From Leptolyngbyaceae cyanobacterium JSC-12 (lineage in GTDB: Bacteria > Cyanobacteriota > Cyanobacteriia > Leptolyngbyales > Leptolyngbyaceae): DNA of 64,000 nt. The notes beneath the pieces were generated by a model. It saw nothing but the letters and a program-made list of their open reading frames with translations. It made no database searches and had not been told where the DNA came from. Positions 5,012 to 17,702 of this stretch are shown piece after piece; within the stretch, counting starts at the first letter, position 1; every line of letters starts with the position of its first letter. The stretch covers positions 518,723 through 582,722 of the forward strand of contig CM001633.1 of NCBI GenBank assembly GCA_000309945.1. Reading direction: 5' to 3'. The translations under genes were made by a program, and so were the position numbers.

Positions 5012-5608
5012 ATGGCTAAATCAATCTTGATGTTAGTGGGTGACTTTGTGGAAGATTACGAAGCCATGGTGCCATTTCAGGCATTACTGATGGTGGGGCA
5101 TACGGTTCATGCTGTGTGCCCAAACAAGAAAGCGGGGGAGACAGTTCGGACGGCGGTTCACGATTTTGAAGGAGATCAAACCTATAGTGAAAAACCAGGA
5201 CATCACTTCACCCTCAACGCCACGTTTGCTGAAATTCAACCACAAACTTACGATGGTCTGGTGATTCCTGGAGGACGAGCACCCGAATACATTCGGCTCA
5301 ACCCAGATGTTATCAAGATTGTGCAGCATTTCGCCAATATGAATAAGCCGATCGCGGCAATTTGTCATGGCGCACAACTGCTAGTAGCGGCTGATGTGCT
5401 TACTGGAAAACGCTGCTCTGCCTATCCCGCATGTGCACCAGAGGTAACCCGTGCGGGTGGTCAATATGCTGATATTCCTGTTGATCAAGCAGTTGTCGAT
5501 GGCAACTTGGTCACGGCTCCTGCATGGCCCGCCCATCCTCGCTGGTTGGCAGAGTTTTTGAAACTACTAGGTACTCGCATTGAACATGCTGAATTAGCAC
5601 AGGTGTAG
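5012..5608 (+). CDS. DJ-1/PfpI-family protein (class I amidotransferase fold)
   Basis: A DJ-1/PfpI superfamily member of 198 residues. Members of this fold act as deglycases, proteases or chaperones, and the role here cannot be fixed. The catalytic elbow is [10 protein letters not shown], with the Cys-His pair typical of the group. The start [14 protein letters not shown] carries the Glu of the usual triad, and the [12 protein letters not shown] loop is also present. The start ATG has a GGAGTTAAGAG upstream. A 27-base gap separates it from the caspase-like gene on the same strand, so co-transcription is plausible, although a link in function is only inferred from position. Confidence 0.88.
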
Positions 5609-5635: not shown

Positions 5636-6616
5636 ATGGATAAGTATGCGCTACTGGTTGGGGTGAGCCAATGTGAGGAGGAGAATCTGCCGACCTTACG
5701 CAAAGCTCGTACCAATGTGGAAGTGTTGAAGCGATCGCTCCAGTCCACCAACTCTGGCTTTGAGGTGCAAGTTTTACAAGATGCCCCACAGTTAGAAATC
5801 ATGGAAACCATTGAGCGAGTATTTCGACATCGAGATGCAGATGACCAGGTTCTCTTTTTGTTTTCTGGCTATGGCATCAAGGATGTGGATGATCAGCTTT
5901 ATTTAGCAACTCCCACCACTGTCATTGATGATTGGGGACAATTAGTGCGAGCCAGAACAATCCCAGCTAGTTTTTTGCTCAATGTGATGAATAGCAGCCC
6001 TGTCTGGCAGCAGGTGGTGATCTTTGACTGTTGCTTCCGCTTAACAAACGGAATTTTGCCGGATGAGCCAGAAGTCCTCATTGAAGATATCTTTAATCAG
6101 ATGATTGGCGATCGCCGCGTCATCCTTACAGCGAACACCTATACACAACACGAACCCGAACCTGAAGAGTTAGACACTTGGACCTACACCCGCTATCTGG
6201 CAGAAGGAGCTGCTACTGGAGCGGCTGATACCGATTGTGATGGTAGTTTAACCGTAGAGGAGTTGCACTACTACGCGCAACGCAAGCTGCAAATTGCTGC
6301 GCCCAGTCAGCATCCCCAGTTTTATGCCCCAGATGCCCCTGTAGAACGCATGGTGTTACAGGTTCCCAGTCAGGTACCAACGGTGCAGTACCGTCAGTAT
6401 TTAGAGAAACTGGCTCAAAGTAGCGAGATTGATACATCTGAGTTTCGCATTCTCACTGGGCGCAATCGACTAAATACACTTCGGCAACATCTGGGATTAT
6501 CGCTGCAAGAAGCCGCTGAAATTGAAGCGGAAGTATTAAGACCCGTGCGAGAACGACAACTGCGGGTACAGTTGTATCAAGAAGTGTTCACTAAGTTGAC
6601 GCAGGGGACGGCATGA
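5636..6616 (+). CDS. caspase-like (C14) protein with His-to-Tyr change, EF-hand loop and helical module
   Basis: A 326-residue caspase-fold protein of the cyanobacterial orthocaspase type. The start DKYALLVGVSQCEEENLPTL and the two core strands FLFSGYG (77-80) and VVIFDCC (131-133) place the catalytic dyad. The second Cys of DCC fits the nucleophile, but the usual His of SGHG is Tyr79, so normal proteolysis is doubtful. Residues 198-210, DTDCDGSLTVEEL, match an EF-hand calcium loop (Asp at 1, 3, 5 and Glu at 12). Residues 251-320 form a helical region with LGLSLQEAAEIEAEVL. A similar pattern opens the next gene, which starts inside this one (ATGA overlap, 6613-6616). The start follows shortly after the DJ-1 gene without a clear ribosome site. 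Confidence 0.82.
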   Translation: MDKYALLVGVSQCEEENLPTLRKARTNVEVLKRSLQSTNSGFEVQVLQDAPQLEIMETIERVFRHRDADDQVLFLFSGYGIKDVDDQLYLATPTTVIDDWGQLVRARTIPASFLLNVMNSSPVWQQVVIFDCCFRLTNGILPDEPEVLIEDIFNQMIGDRRVILTANTYTQHEPEPEELDTWTYTRYLAEGAATGAADTDCDGSLTVEELHYYAQRKLQIAAPSQHPQFYAPDAPVERMVLQVPSQVPTVQYRQYLEKLAQSSEIDTSEFRILTGRNRLNTLRQHLGLSLQEAAEIEAEVLRPVRERQLRVQLYQEVFTKLTQGTA

Positions 6617-8289
6617 ATCCCAATGAAAATGCCTATCGACAACTGAAGCAGTGGCAGAAAGCGCTAGGTTTAACCAATAGCGATACAGGTCTGGCAAATG
6701 TTCAGCCAGATTTAACTGATCCAAATCAGCCAAAACCTGAAGACCTAGAACTTTATGAAGAGATGTTTCGAGAGGCGGCGGAGCGGCAAATTCCTATTCA
6801 AGAGCGCGATCGCAGAGAGTTGGAGTATCTCCAACAGATTTTTCATTTGCGCGAGGAAGATATTGTTGAAATTGAGCAACGAGTTCTGGCAGAGATAGAA
6901 ATCCCCGGCAATATTGGCTCAGACGCTTATCCAGATACACAGGAAGACAGAGCGAACTTTGCGCCCCAATCCTTCCGCCGCTCTTCCCCACCCATTGACT
7001 CTTCTGGCGAAGGTTCTACCGAGCCAACGCTCCTCAATCAAACGGCTTCACCAAATCGCGCCGCTATGCAAGATTTGCTTAGCAAACGCATGAGCGATCG
7101 CATCTCGATGAATCCTGGGCCAACCCAACCTCCAAACGAATTCGCAGCCCGCTCCGCTCCTGTAACTGACCCAGCGATCACTTCCCCTGAAACTGCACCA
7201 GCCAGTTCTACTCCTGCCCCACCCCCATCAGTTCCCACAGCACAGAAACCCGTCGCGCCACCCGTCACGGCTCAAGCCCAGCCGCCGGAGACAGTTATGC
7301 AAACAAGTGGACAGCCTGGCGTGGTGAGTTCTACTCAAGTCCAGCCAGCTCAACCCATAGCGCCCTTGCCTTCTACCCCGGTTGCTATTCCGGATGCTGC
7401 CACCAAACCACCAACTCTCTCCAAACGCATCATTCCATTCGATAAGCCCTCACTGATCATATTTTTTGCATTTCTAGCAGCGCTAACCAGCTTAGGTGTT
7501 ATCTGGTGGATGGTTCGTCCATACCTACAATCCACTACTACCGATCCCCAAGCAGCACAGCAGTTTATGCAACAGGGAACGCAAAACAATCAAGCCAGTA
7601 ACTATCAGGCAGCGATCGCCGATTTTAATGAGGCAATTCGGCTGAACCGAAACGACGTCAATGCCTACATTAACCGGGGATTTGCGCACCATCGCTTGAG
7701 AAATCTGAATGCTGCTGCCGATGACTACACTAAAGCCATTGAACTAAACAAAAACTCTGCCGAAGCCCACAGCAATCTCAGCCATGTTCGTTTTGATCAG
7801 GGGAATTTTAGCGAGGCAGCAAAGTTGGCTCAACGAGCACTTGAACTCAAACCCAATTTTCCTGAAGCCCACCTCAATCTGGGCAATGCCATGCAAGCTG
7901 AAAATAACCTCGAACGTGCAACAGCAGAATTTCAAAAAGTTCTCCAACTCCCTGCCAGCAACATCACAAAAGCTAGAGCACACAACAATCGCGGCAATAT
8001 CTTTTTTATTCGAAAGAACTTTTCAGAAGCAGGCAAAGAGTACGACCAGGCGATTCAGCTTGATCCAAGCTATGCGGATGCCTTTTTTAATCGCGGACTT
8101 GTCAATGAGCGCAGCGGCAACCCGCAGGCTGCCATTCGAGACTTTACAGATGCTGCCAGACTATATAGAGAGCAGAAAAACGATCGCAGAAGCCAAGAAG
8201 CCCAACGTCGAGCAGAGCAATTGCAGCAGGCAAATCCCACCACCAGCCCTCCACCCACTCAAACCCCAAATACAACGGAATCGATCTAA
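6613..8289 (+). CDS. membrane TPR protein with N-terminal helical module
   Basis: A 558-residue protein with four parts: a charged helical region (about 1-97) including LYEEMFREAAERQ and LREEDIVEIEQRVLAEI; a Pro/Ser/Thr/Ala-rich linker (about 100-275); one membrane helix around 282-302 (FFAFLAALTSLGVIWWM); and at least five TPR repeats (about 315-545) such as YQAAIADFNEAIRLN and YTKAIELNKNSAEAH. TPRs usually bind other proteins. With one helix, the module and the TPRs lie on opposite sides of the membrane. Translation is coupled to the caspase-like gene by a 4-base overlap. The N-terminal pattern resembles the C-terminus of that partner, which suggests homotypic contact. No enzymatic domain is seen. 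Confidence 0.8.
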   Translation: MNPNENAYRQLKQWQKALGLTNSDTGLANVQPDLTDPNQPKPEDLELYEEMFREAAERQIPIQERDRRELEYLQQIFHLREEDIVEIEQRVLAEIEIPGNIGSDAYPDTQEDRANFAPQSFRRSSPPIDSSGEGSTEPTLLNQTASPNRAAMQDLLSKRMSDRISMNPGPTQPPNEFAARSAPVTDPAITSPETAPASSTPAPPPSVPTAQKPVAPPVTAQAQPPETVMQTSGQPGVVSSTQVQPAQPIAPLPSTPVAIPDAATKPPTLSKRIIPFDKPSLIIFFAFLAALTSLGVIWWMVRPYLQSTTTDPQAAQQFMQQGTQNNQASNYQAAIADFNEAIRLNRNDVNAYINRGFAHHRLRNLNAAADDYTKAIELNKNSAEAHSNLSHVRFDQGNFSEAAKLAQRALELKPNFPEAHLNLGNAMQAENNLERATAEFQKVLQLPASNITKARAHNNRGNIFFIRKNFSEAGKEYDQAIQLDPSYADAFFNRGLVNERSGNPQAAIRDFTDAARLYREQKNDRRSQEAQRRAEQLQQANPTTSPPPTQTPNTTESI

Positions 8290-13612: not shown

Positions 13613-13720
13613 AACTCCTCCCTATCCCCTTATCCTCTACTGCCTTTTCCCGGAGTTGAGGAAATGTTGCTTGTAGAGCTAGCTTAGGAGTAGTTTAGCC
13701 AGTTATTCTCACGCCAATTG

Positions 13721-15244
13721 ATGAATTCCATCCAGCAGTATTACGAAATCCTGGGGTTGCAGCCCGGAGCTTCTCAAGCCAAAGTGAAACAAGCCTACCG
13801 GGCATTAGCAAAAACCTGGCACCCAGATCGCTTTAGCCATGATCCCATTTTGAAGCGGCAGGCAGAAGAAAAACTCAAGGATATCAATCAAGCGTATCAG
13901 CAATTAAAAAACTACCAGCCTGCTAAGAAATCACTCGAAACTCCACCACCCCCCTCTGCATCGTCATCCTTACGTACAAGCGTTTCTACCAAGCCTACGA
14001 ATGCGGAGTTTTGGTATAACCGGGGAGCCGAAAACGCTCAGCAGGGACGCTACAAGGAAGCTCTAGATGATTTCAGTATGGCGATTCGGATGAATCCAAC
14101 CTATGTGGAAGCTTACCGTTATCGAGGATTTGCCTACTCCATGCTGGGATTTGAATTGGGGGCAGAATCAGATTTGACCAAGGCGAAGGCACTGGAACGG
14201 GAGCGGCAACAAGCGGCAGAAACGGTACGCTCGCATACTGATCGCCCCTCTGCCAATCCCACTTCTAAAAACAGTTGGGGCTGGAACTGGGGTAAATCTG
14301 CCCGTAAACCTTCGCCTCAAACACCACTTCCTCAACCTGCTGTCTGGAATGATGACCAAACGTTTCGGGATCATCACGACGAGATCACTGCGATCGCGAT
14401 GAGTCGGAATGGCAAGTTTTTGGTCAGCGGCAGCCGAGATGCCACAGTCAAATTTTGGAATCTACTGACGGGGGATCTGTTTCACACTCTGTCCAAACAC
14501 GATCTGCCAATTACAGCGATCGCTCTAAGTCTGGATGGGCAGTTGTTAGCCACAGGTAGCGAAGACAAGACGATTAAACTTTGGGATTTGAGACAGGGAA
14601 CTATGCTGCGTGCTCTAACTGGGCATTTCAGCACAATTAGCACGCTTGCTTTTAGCCCTGATCATCGTATCTTGATCAGCGGTGGGCAGGATGGACAGGT
14701 TGGCTTCTGGAATCTGAAAACTAGCCGGATTACGCCAATCTTTCAACAGCAAGGCTCCCCAATTTTGGCAGTAGCGCTCAGTCCCGATGGGCAACTTGCG
14801 ATTACTGGCAGCGTTAACCACATCCTGACTCTGTACCAGGTGAGAACAGGTGAGTTGCTGCGATCGCTGCTGGCTCATGCGGCTGGCATCAGCAGCATTG
14901 CCTTCAGTCCCGATAGTCGGTTATTTGCTACTGGTGGAGAAAACGGCACAATTCAAGTTTGGGCAGAATCGGCAATTGTCACCGACCAGTCAGAGCGATC
15001 GCTGGCAGGACATTCTGGTGCAGTGAAATCGCTTGCCTTCAGCCCAGATGGTCGGATATTAGCAAGTGCTGGCAGAGATAGCACGATTCAGTTATGGAAT
15101 CCCCTAAATGGCGATCGGCTTGCCATCCTGGCTGGACACACAAATAGCGTCAACTCCATTGTCTTTAGCCCCGATGGTCACAGCCTATTCAGTGGCAGCA
15201 CCGACAACACCATCAAGCGCTGGCGTTCTTTACCAGTGTCCTAG
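13721..15244 (+). CDS. J-domain, TPR and WD40 repeat protein
   Basis: A three-part chimera of 507 residues. The J domain (about 4-66) has the HPD tripeptide in TWHPDRF and would stimulate an Hsp70 ATPase. Two TPR-like repeats follow around 93-155 (FWYNRGAENAQQGRYKEALDDF). From about 212 to the end lie seven WD40 repeats, for example MSRNGKFLVSGSRDATVKFW and FSPDGHSLFSGSTDNTIKRW, likely forming one beta-propeller. The linker is rich in Pro and Ser. It may be a co-chaperone that brings propeller-bound clients to DnaK. The ATG at 13721 is used; a TTG lies just before it. The WD40 kinase gene follows 121 bases downstream on the same strand. Confidence 0.88.
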   Translation: MNSIQQYYEILGLQPGASQAKVKQAYRALAKTWHPDRFSHDPILKRQAEEKLKDINQAYQQLKNYQPAKKSLETPPPPSASSSLRTSVSTKPTNAEFWYNRGAENAQQGRYKEALDDFSMAIRMNPTYVEAYRYRGFAYSMLGFELGAESDLTKAKALERERQQAAETVRSHTDRPSANPTSKNSWGWNWGKSARKPSPQTPLPQPAVWNDDQTFRDHHDEITAIAMSRNGKFLVSGSRDATVKFWNLLTGDLFHTLSKHDLPITAIALSLDGQLLATGSEDKTIKLWDLRQGTMLRALTGHFSTISTLAFSPDHRILISGGQDGQVGFWNLKTSRITPIFQQQGSPILAVALSPDGQLAITGSVNHILTLYQVRTGELLRSLLAHAAGISSIAFSPDSRLFATGGENGTIQVWAESAIVTDQSERSLAGHSGAVKSLAFSPDGRILASAGRDSTIQLWNPLNGDRLAILAGHTNSVNSIVFSPDGHSLFSGSTDNTIKRWRSLPVS

Positions 15245-15365
15245 AATAGGGTTTGGGAAGAAAACAATATTCAGGCTTTAGCTCTGCGCGTCATTGCCGA
15301 CAAAATTGAACATGGCGAGATGCCACTGGGGCTATTATTAGGTTTCACCTGGCGCATCTTTGGCT

Positions 15366-17702
15366 ATGACCTATTGCCTCAATCCTGATTGCCCCAAGCC
15401 GCGCAATCCTGACAGCGCAAAAACCTGTCGCAGTTGTGGAGCAAAGTTGCTCTTGAAAGATCGGTATCGGGCGATCGCCACAATTGGGCAAGGCGGATTT
15501 GGAAGAACCTTTTTAGCCGTGGATGAAGACAAACCTTCCAAACCACGATGCGTGATTAAGCAATTTCTCCCAGTTGCCCAAAATCCCCGCAACCTTAAAA
15601 AAGCCTTGTCCTTGTTTGAGCAAGAAGCTGTGCGGTTGGAAGAATTAGGGCACCATCCCCAAATTCCAGAACTACTGGCCTATTTCAATCAGGAAGGAAA
15701 CCAATACCTGATTCAAGAATTTATTCATGGTAAAAACCTGGCAGATGCCCTGGCAGAGCAGGGAGTGTTTTGGGAAACACAGGTGCGGGAAGTGTTGGCA
15801 AAGCTTCTCCCCGTATTGGATTTTGTCCACTCTCACAATGTGATTCACCGCGACATTAAACCTGGCAATGTCATCATTACGGGCAGTCAGTTGGGCATGA
15901 GCCTGCCGCGATCAGGACAGTTAGACTGGGCATTACTTCAACAGGCGTTGGCGATCGAATCAAATCAGGGATTCCGCAATTTTGTGAGTCCGTCTTACCG
16001 ATTCAATGAACTACTGGGATTCAGCCTCTCCCAACCTTCTAAAGATTTGCCCACTGCGTTCTACACTCGTTGTCAACAATTGGCAGTGCAATGTATGCGC
16101 TACCCCACGTTGCCCATTGCACAACGGCAATACATTGTTGCGGATGCCAGTCGGTTGTTGTATGAAATTCAGCAATTGCACGAAACTCGCAGTGGCACTC
16201 TCTCAATTGGTCGCCTGGTGCTGGTTGATTTTGGAGCGGCAAAATCGCTTAAGGGCTTAGCAGCGATGCAAACTGGTACCACTATTGGCAGTCCGGAGTA
16301 TGTCGCGCCAGAACAGGCACGCGGAAAAGCGGTATTTGCCAGTGATTTATACAGTCTGGGTGTAACCTGTGTGCATTTGTTGACCAAGATTTCACCCTAC
16401 GACTTGTTTGATCCAGCAACAGATACCTGGGTCTGGCGCAAGTACTTGACGGCTCCGATTAGCGAGCAATTAAGCTCTATTTTGGATCGGCTATTGGAAC
16501 GGGCGATCGCCCGACGCTATCAATCGGCAGCAGAAGTATTGCAAGACCTGGAAGGTTCTTCCATTGCTCCTATCCCCCCATCGGTTCCCATTCCACCCCT
16601 CCCATTACAACCCGCTAAACTGCCTCAACCAACCAATCAATCAGCATTACAATTTCCAGTTACAGCTTCTCAACCACTTGTTCAGCCGTCTCTGCAACCA
16701 TCCTTTCGGATTGCGCGCCGTCCCAGAGTGGGAATGCCTGCGATTCCAAAAGTACCCACCCTTCAACTGGAAGAACCAGAACCAGAGGTAAAATCACGGC
16801 GGCGATCGCAACCCAATTGGCGTTGTGTGCAAACCTTTGAGAGTCCAGCACGAATTTATGCGCTGGCACTTAGCCCTACTGAGCCAATCCTCGCCAGCAC
16901 CAGTGGTAACACCATCAAACTCTGGGATATTGAACAACTCAAACCCATTCGCACCCTGACTGGACATCTGGATATCATTCCTGCGATCGCCATTACCCCC
17001 GATGGTAAACATCTGCTCAGTGGTAGCGCCGATAAAACCATCGGCATTTGGGAACTTAGCACTGGACGGCAACTTTCAAAACTGGCTCTGCATTCTGATA
17101 CAGTACTTGCTTTGGCACTTTCTTCAGATGGTCAAACCCTTGCTAGTAGCAGCTTCTATGACCCTATTACGCTTTGGGATTTGGAGGCTGGCTACAAACG
17201 ATATGGCTTGATGGGACACTCTGCACGGATTGATGCTTTAGCCTTTCGTCCCTCACTAGGCAAGGAAAAACTTGGAGAAATGCTTGCCAGTGGCAGTAGT
17301 GATCTCACCATCAAACTGTGGGATGTTGATCGCGGTGAGGAACTTCGCACGCTGGAAGGACATACTCACCACATTTCAGCACTCGCTTTTAACTCTGACG
17401 GTACAACCCTTGCCAGTGCCAGTTGGGATGGAACAGTAAAGCTGTGGAATCTCAAATCTCGTCGCCACCGCACTTTAGAAGTGGAGTCGGGGCGAATCAA
17501 TGGAATTGCCTTTAGTTTAGATGGGAAAAAGCTCGCGATCGCGAGTGACACTCTACAACTCTGGACAGTACCTTCAGGGAAAAAAATCACGTTGGCACCG
17601 GGACACACTGATCCGGTTTGTGCTGTGCTATTCGGTCGGACTGATCAGATGCTCATTAGTGCTGGGTTTGATCGCACTATCAAACTATGGCAATGGGAAT
17701 AA
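15366..17702 (+). CDS. Ser/Thr protein kinase with zinc-ribbon and WD40 propeller
   Basis: A cytoplasmic Hanks-type kinase of 778 residues. The N-terminus has a four-Cys zinc-ribbon (YCLNPDC and CRSCG). The kinase follows with the glycine loop GQGGFGRTF, the Lys in CVIKQF, HRDIKPGN around 159-167, VDFGAAKS around 285 and YVAPEQARG. The gap between HRDIKPGN and DFG is about 115 residues instead of the usual 12-20. This insertion (about 170-280) contains RFNELLGFSLSQPSKDLP and is mostly helical. A Pro-rich linker leads to seven WD40 repeats (about 483-778). All catalytic residues are present. I use the ATG at 15366. It probably acts with, or recognises targets like, the J-domain WD40 protein upstream. 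Confidence 0.9.
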   Translation: MTYCLNPDCPKPRNPDSAKTCRSCGAKLLLKDRYRAIATIGQGGFGRTFLAVDEDKPSKPRCVIKQFLPVAQNPRNLKKALSLFEQEAVRLEELGHHPQIPELLAYFNQEGNQYLIQEFIHGKNLADALAEQGVFWETQVREVLAKLLPVLDFVHSHNVIHRDIKPGNVIITGSQLGMSLPRSGQLDWALLQQALAIESNQGFRNFVSPSYRFNELLGFSLSQPSKDLPTAFYTRCQQLAVQCMRYPTLPIAQRQYIVADASRLLYEIQQLHETRSGTLSIGRLVLVDFGAAKSLKGLAAMQTGTTIGSPEYVAPEQARGKAVFASDLYSLGVTCVHLLTKISPYDLFDPATDTWVWRKYLTAPISEQLSSILDRLLERAIARRYQSAAEVLQDLEGSSIAPIPPSVPIPPLPLQPAKLPQPTNQSALQFPVTASQPLVQPSLQPSFRIARRPRVGMPAIPKVPTLQLEEPEPEVKSRRRSQPNWRCVQTFESPARIYALALSPTEPILASTSGNTIKLWDIEQLKPIRTLTGHLDIIPAIAITPDGKHLLSGSADKTIGIWELSTGRQLSKLALHSDTVLALALSSDGQTLASSSFYDPITLWDLEAGYKRYGLMGHSARIDALAFRPSLGKEKLGEMLASGSSDLTIKLWDVDRGEELRTLEGHTHHISALAFNSDGTTLASASWDGTVKLWNLKSRRHRTLEVESGRINGIAFSLDGKKLAIASDTLQLWTVPSGKKITLAPGHTDPVCAVLFGRTDQMLISAGFDRTIKLWQWE

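Follow-up and report, generated by a model that had tools for sequence, protein, structure and literature searches.

Organization of the locus

The window, a stretch of 64,000 nucleotides, carries at 5636–8289 two overlapping genes, both on the forward strand, with the following features.

5636..6616, +: pseudo-orthocaspase gene, 326 aa, lacking a TM helix and proposed as the soluble subunit (ORF, Pfam, NCBIfam; one row per genome in a clade of 19 rows)
5642..6073, +: caspase (C14, p20-like) core, residues 3–146 (Pfam PF00656, NCBIfam NF047832)
5870..5872, +: Tyr79 at the catalytic-His position, FSGYG (alignments)
6032..6034, +: Cys133 at the nucleophile position (alignments; kept in 7/8 split genes and 0/11 fused clade members)
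6227..6262, +: EF-hand-type loop, residues 198–209 (ligand positions; a family feature in the alignments)
6383..6610, +: helical repeat 1, C-terminus of the pseudo-caspase (A7 profile, E 9.8e-15)
6613..8289, +: membrane TPR gene, 558 aa (ORF, Pfam)
6613..6616, +: ATGA stop-start overlap of 4 nt, the boundary between repeat 1 and the following repeats (ORFs, relatives)
6634..6894, +: further helical repeats, N-terminus of the TPR protein (A7 profile, E 4.5e-13; rep2 HMM 64.3 bits against 12.3 for the best of 8000 shuffles)
6904..7437, +: Pro/Ala-rich linker of low model confidence (sequence; pLDDT <50 for residues 54–277)
7450..7506, +: single transmembrane helix, residues 280–298, K/R richer on its N-terminal side (hydropathy, charge count)
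7600..8232, +: TPR domain, predicted to be extracytoplasmic (Pfam TPR; pLDDT mostly >90 at residues 331–540; side from charge bias)

Residues 3–146 of the first protein form a single C14 match (PF00656, 46.8 bits against a cut-off of 21.4), which places it in the C14 superfamily. Its sole NCBIfam match, NF047832 (caspase, EACC1-associated type), covers residues 4–219 with 103.9 bits, below the cut-off of 140. Alignments set Tyr79 opposite the catalytic His and the second Cys of the DCC motif (Cys133) opposite the nucleophile, confirming what a sequence-only reading of the locus had noticed; the SG that usually follows this Cys (DCCFSG) is gone, and the window protein reads DCCFR. A PDB search with the single window protein returned nothing at E 1, and the family profile A4 found as its top match the plant-type Metacaspase-4 (6w8s, E 2.2e-5). 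AlphaFold2 gave an unusable model of the pseudo-caspase (mean pLDDT 39.5). The second protein contains tandem TPR repeats (TPR_2, E 5.6e-35, six stretches); its AlphaFold2 model is good for the TPR domain only, the N-terminal repeats being of low confidence.

The 5.53-Mb genome holds five C14 matches, the window protein included. The motifs of the other four are SGHG and DCC in two, SGHG and DAC in one, and SGFG in one; the last of these (L002, G000:C1:4761360-4762145) is a second likely pseudo-caspase of the same genome.

Phylogeny, dyad loss and selection

Relatives were found at E 1e-20 in 44 of 386 cyanobacterial genomes, the window's own included, and at E 1e-12 in 37 of the 42 genomes of its family. 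The sample drawn from these searches comprised 65 places outside the own genome from the 386-genome search and 40 stretches for 74 places in the family; the window's own family is represented more densely than others. L036, which is 92% identical to the window, was counted as one with G397 (L150); it was left out of the tree together with the fragments L167, L169, L088, L090, L094, L098 and L101. In the resulting tree of 99 rows, built without columns 79 and 133, the window sits in a clade of 19 rows (support 100/100), one row per genome and all from its own family; the tool flagged long branches and odd composition in two of these rows (L178, L179). Because 40 stretches were taken for 74 places, the presence of the clade in 19 of the 42 family genomes is a lower bound.

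The His-Cys dyad is found in none of the 19 clade members, as against 72 of the 80 other rows. At positions 79 and 133 the clade instead shows Tyr-Cys (7 members), Tyr-Tyr (5), Tyr-Ile (2), His-Tyr (2), Tyr-Ser (1), Tyr-His (1) and Tyr-Gln (1), with Tyr79 in 17 of the 19, and the tree requires at least six changes of dyad state. By its substituted dyad the window protein belongs with the pseudo-orthocaspases and not with the active orthocaspases. The dN/dS of the pseudo-caspase gene is 0.035 between the window and G397 (dS 1.28) and 0.066 between G422 and G423 (dS 0.50); for the TPR gene the corresponding values are 0.086 (dS 2.28, near saturation) and 0.22, and more distant gene pairs had dS values that were saturated or above 2. 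By these estimates both genes are under purifying selection. A non-proteolytic role, as first proposed from the sequence, is well supported, since the dyad is gone in 19/19 clade members and dN/dS is 0.035.

A helical module on both sides of the gene boundary

The sequence-only reading had pointed to LGLSLQEAAEIEAEVL (residues 286–301 of the pseudo-caspase) and LREEDIVEIEQRVLAEI (residues 79–95 of the TPR protein) as signs of a helical interaction module shared by the two proteins. When the two regions of the window are compared directly by profile, the signal is weak on its own (hhalign 13%, against 0.1% for a TPR-domain control); the matter is settled by the relatives. A repeat profile of 50 rows, none of them from the window's clade (A7), had its two top matches in the whole 5.5-Mb genome on either side of the gene overlap (9.8e-15 and 4.5e-13), followed by matches of 0.003 and 0.004. 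An HMM of the second repeat (rep2), made from rows outside the clade, matches the N-terminus of the TPR protein in all eight split genomes (49.7–68.9 bits), against 12.3 bits for the best of 8000 shuffles and 4.1 bits for the TPR domain. The HMM of the first repeat (rep1) gave 11.2 bits on the window's TPR-protein N-terminus, a score that shuffled sequences exceeded (12.7 for the best of 8000). The two repeats are themselves related (hhalign 85%, E 6.6e-7; TPR control 0.1%); this is the second rep1–rep2 alignment, the top one (90%) merely mirroring overlapping extracts.

The similarity between the two proteins is thus real, with A7 matching both sides, and together with the rep2 HMM it supports a pseudo-caspase coupled to a membrane protein through this module. 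The cause is another than the one first supposed: a tandem repeat has been cut by the gene boundary, and the module is common to both proteins because a single-chain ancestor apparently split between its repeats. No Pfam family exceeded its cut-off in the repeat among the 75 module proteins scanned. The same repeat joins a kinase to FGE and a TIR to GUN4 in L201, L202, L207 and L208 (domains named by eye), and it therefore seems to be a general cyanobacterial linking module.

Probable gene fission

The relatives inspected are mostly single chains in which the caspase is followed by repeats 1 and 2, often by a TM helix, and then by varied distal domains, named by eye as PBP-like, FGE, GUN4, WD40 or TPR. 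The clade itself comprises 8 split pairs and 11 fused single chains, and one change between the two states is needed. According to A7, the caspase chain carries both repeats in all 11 fused members and in 74 of the 80 rows outside the clade, the latter count being partly by construction because A7 contains 50 of these 80 rows. In the split caspases A7 finds the first repeat alone in 7 of 8, the frame-broken G396 giving none. Since most relatives outside the clade and all the fused members have the two repeats on one chain with the caspase, fission is the simpler direction, and the pair is best read as the product of a gene fission between the repeats of a single-chain ancestor.

Comparison with the fused loci is consistent with this reading. 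Of nine fused loci compared, six show the match to the window's first protein followed directly by that to the beginning of its second, with 0–57 nt between them; in the other three the match to the second part is absent. The window's TPR domain matches 10 of the 11 fused members with 98–150 bits, the eleventh (G421, 610 aa, at a contig end) giving no TPR match. Outside the clade, 12 of the 80 rows match this domain as well at E <1e-5; because intact caspases are among them, the caspase–TPR fusion is not confined to pseudo-caspases. The group of eight split rows has a bootstrap of 95 and an SH-aLRT of 33, and support rises to 100/100 without G411, so two separate fissions are possible.

The two ORFs do share an ATGA (5636–6616 and 6613–8289), from which a fixed stoichiometry had been argued. 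This argument finds no support, as the overlap is 4, 11 or 14 nt long in the seven split pairs measured, the window's included; at most, the overlap points to translational coupling.

Other caspase–TPR proteins were seen among the relatives. L052 (G191:C1:3441200-3446600) combines an intact His-Cys caspase with a TPR domain closer to the window's (195 bits) than are those of the fused pseudo-caspases (98–150 bits). A separate group in the same family consists of eight caspase–TPR membrane proteins (L096, L099, L170, L171 and L173–L176), five of which keep His-Cys, two have Tyr79 and one has Asn79; their EF loop carries a four-residue insertion. Two further caspase–TPR relatives look broken, L088 (G060) by an internal stop and L157 (G396) by a frameshift in the assembly, through either decay or assembly error.

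Membrane topology

K/R residues are in excess on the N-terminal side of the TM helix in all seven split TPR proteins examined, the G396 fragment being left out. Among 87 relatives of at least 400 aa, 43 bear a TM helix, defined as a hydrophobic stretch above 1.6 beyond residue 300; the N-side excess holds in 32 of these, with equal counts in 6 and the opposite bias in 5. Because of this bias, taken from hydropathy and charge count, the arrangement suggests a cytoplasmic location for the caspase and repeats and exposure of the TPR domain to the periplasm or the thylakoid lumen.

The EF-hand-type loop

The complete EF-hand loop that had been reported at residues 198–210 is present, at 198–209, as a 12-residue loop with the ligands D198, D200, D202, G203 and E209. 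Defined as D198, D/N/S at 200 and 202, G203 and E/D209, a complete loop occurs in 6 of the 7 split rows with sequence there, 7 of 11 fused members, 51 of the 80 other rows and 48 of the 72 relatives with an intact dyad. By this distribution it is a feature of the family that is not tied to the loss of activity. Calcium sensing, which had been put forward as a special property of the pseudo-caspase, is not supported in that form, as the loop is common in intact relatives and has been lost in 5 of the 18 scorable clade members. An EF-hand motif has also been described in seven archaeal orthocaspases (PMC6426788, excerpted text).

The loop may instead bind no regulatory calcium at all and be a structural turn of the caspase domain, a reading to which we give close to an even chance. 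It lies within the stretch covered by NF047832 (4–219), its helix-loop-helix is not recognized by the Pfam EF-hand models (12.0–12.9 bits against cut-offs of 25–30), and it is incomplete in 29 of the 80 other rows as well as in those five clade members. Against a mere turn, 13 of the 18 scorable clade members satisfy the ligand rule, even though every member of the clade has lost the dyad.

Model of the pair and alternative explanations

The description that fits the pair best is that of a non-catalytic orthocaspase in two pieces, one of them a membrane TPR protein. The full mechanism that we favor, and consider probable from the gene arrangement and comparisons, is a two-subunit, receptor-like membrane complex whose single-chain orthocaspase ancestor underwent fission. 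From the first gene would come a pseudo-orthocaspase that is soluble in the cytoplasm and has helical repeat 1 at its C-terminal end; the product of the second would have further cytoplasmic repeats, cross the membrane once and display its TPR domain on the far side. Both chains would reassemble through the repeat contacts of the parent protein, with the gene overlap helping their joint production. Binding of a protein or peptide to the TPR domain could then alter the repeats, such that the dead caspase domain would hold or release a cytoplasmic target; more speculatively, the EF-type loop may tune this response with Ca2+. The sequences directly show two genes with a common repeat module, the lost dyad, the purifying selection and the order of the domains; the direction of the fission, the N-in topology, the reassembly, the binding of a ligand and a non-catalytic output are inferred.

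An alternative is that the pseudo-caspase acts as a decoy or dominant-negative, pairing with active orthocaspases of the same cell or shielding their substrates. The genome offers possible partners in its four other C14 proteins, with the motifs given above, pseudo-proteases have been discussed as scaffolds or competitors (PMC6426788, in part), and about 70% of effector-position caspase domains are reported as inactive in another system (PMC7159879, in part). The module, however, matches strongly in this pair alone within the genome, which leaves the active paralogues without the docking part, and we regard the decoy explanation as unlikely.

Still less probable, and in our view very unlikely, is that the protein remains a protease in which another His, such as His172, is paired with Cys133. 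In its favor, Cys133 is kept in 7/8 split genes, and His172 in 6/8 split and 3/11 fused rows at a position that is Tyr in 54 of the 80 other rows. Against it, Cys133 is found in 0/11 fused clade members, and in the window protein the SG after the Cys is gone. His211 occurs in all 18 clade rows with sequence there and is no replacement, because it is also present in 78 of the 80 other rows. The last explanation, that the gene is the chance survivor of a protease in decay or that a sequencing error created the split, could appeal to the lost catalytic residues and the frame-broken copy in G396, but it is already largely refuted by the dN/dS values of 0.035 and 0.066 and by the fact that seven genomes, that of the window among them, have clean gene overlaps (4, 11 or 14 nt), and is barely credible.

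Pseudo-orthocaspases are widespread in phototrophs; in the split, non-catalytic pair the dead caspase is parted from its membrane half at a repeat boundary. The pair thereby offers two proteins, one predicted interface and single-chain relatives with which to compare them.

Comparison with known systems

The window protein resembles the pseudo-orthocaspases (PMC6426788), including SyOC of Synechocystis (PMC7889975), in its p20-type C14 domain and a substituted dyad, often with Tyr for His, and these proteins are presumed to be non-proteolytic. According to the excerpted text of PMC6426788, such proteins are frequent in phototrophs, the dyads named are YS, YN, YG, YA, YY, FS, QC, HA and HG, and retention of the Cys is known, as Gln-Cys in Alphaproteobacteria, where the FS forms bear TPR. 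The same excerpts report the cyanobacterial YS and YN forms without an identified C-terminal domain. The split form described here differs in its Tyr-Cys dyad, its two genes, its C-terminal helical repeat and its membrane TPR partner. For SyOC, the available part of PMC7889975 describes a study of the survival of a deletion strain under oxidative stress.

TPR and TM elements have been found in orthocaspases before: the accessible portion of PMC8283722 lists TPR_1 and TPR_16, each in one pseudo-orthocaspase; of its 473 orthocaspases, 67 have TM helices, and 37 of these 67 are pseudo-orthocaspases. Unlike in these proteins, the TM helix and TPR domain of the window stand on a second gene, with an unnamed helical repeat bridging the two. 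A split pseudo-orthocaspase pair was absent from the titles and abstract openings found for orthocaspases with TPR, TM, EF-hand or Ca2+, a scope that leaves out most subscription papers.

The EACC1-caspase systems, as far as the excerpt of PMC7159879 goes, likewise have two genes, one with a TM helix, and a caspase followed by variable C-terminal domains. NF047832 matches all 19 rows of A4, and one relative (L038) passes its cut-off of 140 with 187.3 bits. In contrast to these systems, the window has the reversed gene order, a lost dyad and a TPR protein as the partner. An EACC1 gene (PF19953) was not found in the genome at E 0.1, in a search that lacked a strong positive control because control genomes gave sub-cut-off matches only.

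Resemblance of the module to Tic110

To our knowledge, Tic110 has no recognized cyanobacterial homologue. The best PDB match of the module, obtained with both A3 and A7, is Tic110 of C. merolae (4bm5), in its C-terminal repeats. The 25 rows of A3 gave E 4.2e-6 (next match 0.027; best single stretch 0.089) and the 50 other rows of A7 gave E 2.2e-7 (next 0.0097; best single stretch 0.0013), these scores being sums of weak stretches from two alignments whose rows are disjoint but kin, a few of them near-identical (L053/L054). The alignments of the window's own clade, A5 and A6, had no Tic110 match in the PDB at E 10. The Pfam Tic110 model matches 15 of 75 module members at E <=1 (6/25 and 9/50; best E 4.1e-5), none over its cut-off (best 22.8 of 27 bits), and is the most frequent family among them, others matching at most two. 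Searched over the 386 genomes, the same model has matches at E 0.01 in two genomes, the best of which falls in the module (G251, E 6.9e-4 for one genome, below cut-off). The other two matches, both in G016, look like Ala-rich chance matches.

Tic110 is a chloroplast inner-envelope protein whose crystal structure is HEAT-like and has been read as a scaffold (PMC3823011, in part); unlike the proteins described here, it carries neither caspase nor TPR. We tentatively suggest, while judging the chances to lie well against it, that the cyanobacterial module linking caspase, kinase and TIR to other domains could be the bacterial source of the Tic110 HEAT-like scaffold, part of the import apparatus having come from cyanobacterial membrane signaling hubs. 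The window's pair would then represent a two-chain cousin in a free-living cell, where it would form a non-catalytic scaffold on the cytoplasmic side of the membrane, with a TPR partner. The one paper found that joins Tic110, caspase and cyanobacteria deals with chloroplast import. Were the relation to hold, it would provide a cyanobacterial lead for a chloroplast import component.

Neighboring genes

A DJ-1/PfpI gene (5012–5608) lies 27 bp upstream of the pseudo-caspase. Near relatives carry it whole at G400 (196 aa, 85%), as a 54-aa match in G396 and as a 37-aa match beside the caspase start in G397/L036 (L036 4910–5020), and there was no match in the 10 kb around the G422 gene; as so inconstant a neighbor, it was ruled out as an obligatory member of the operon. 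Farther downstream, at 13718–17702, the window encodes two large proteins in which DnaJ and TPR, or a Ser/Thr kinase, occur with WD40 repeats (by eye).
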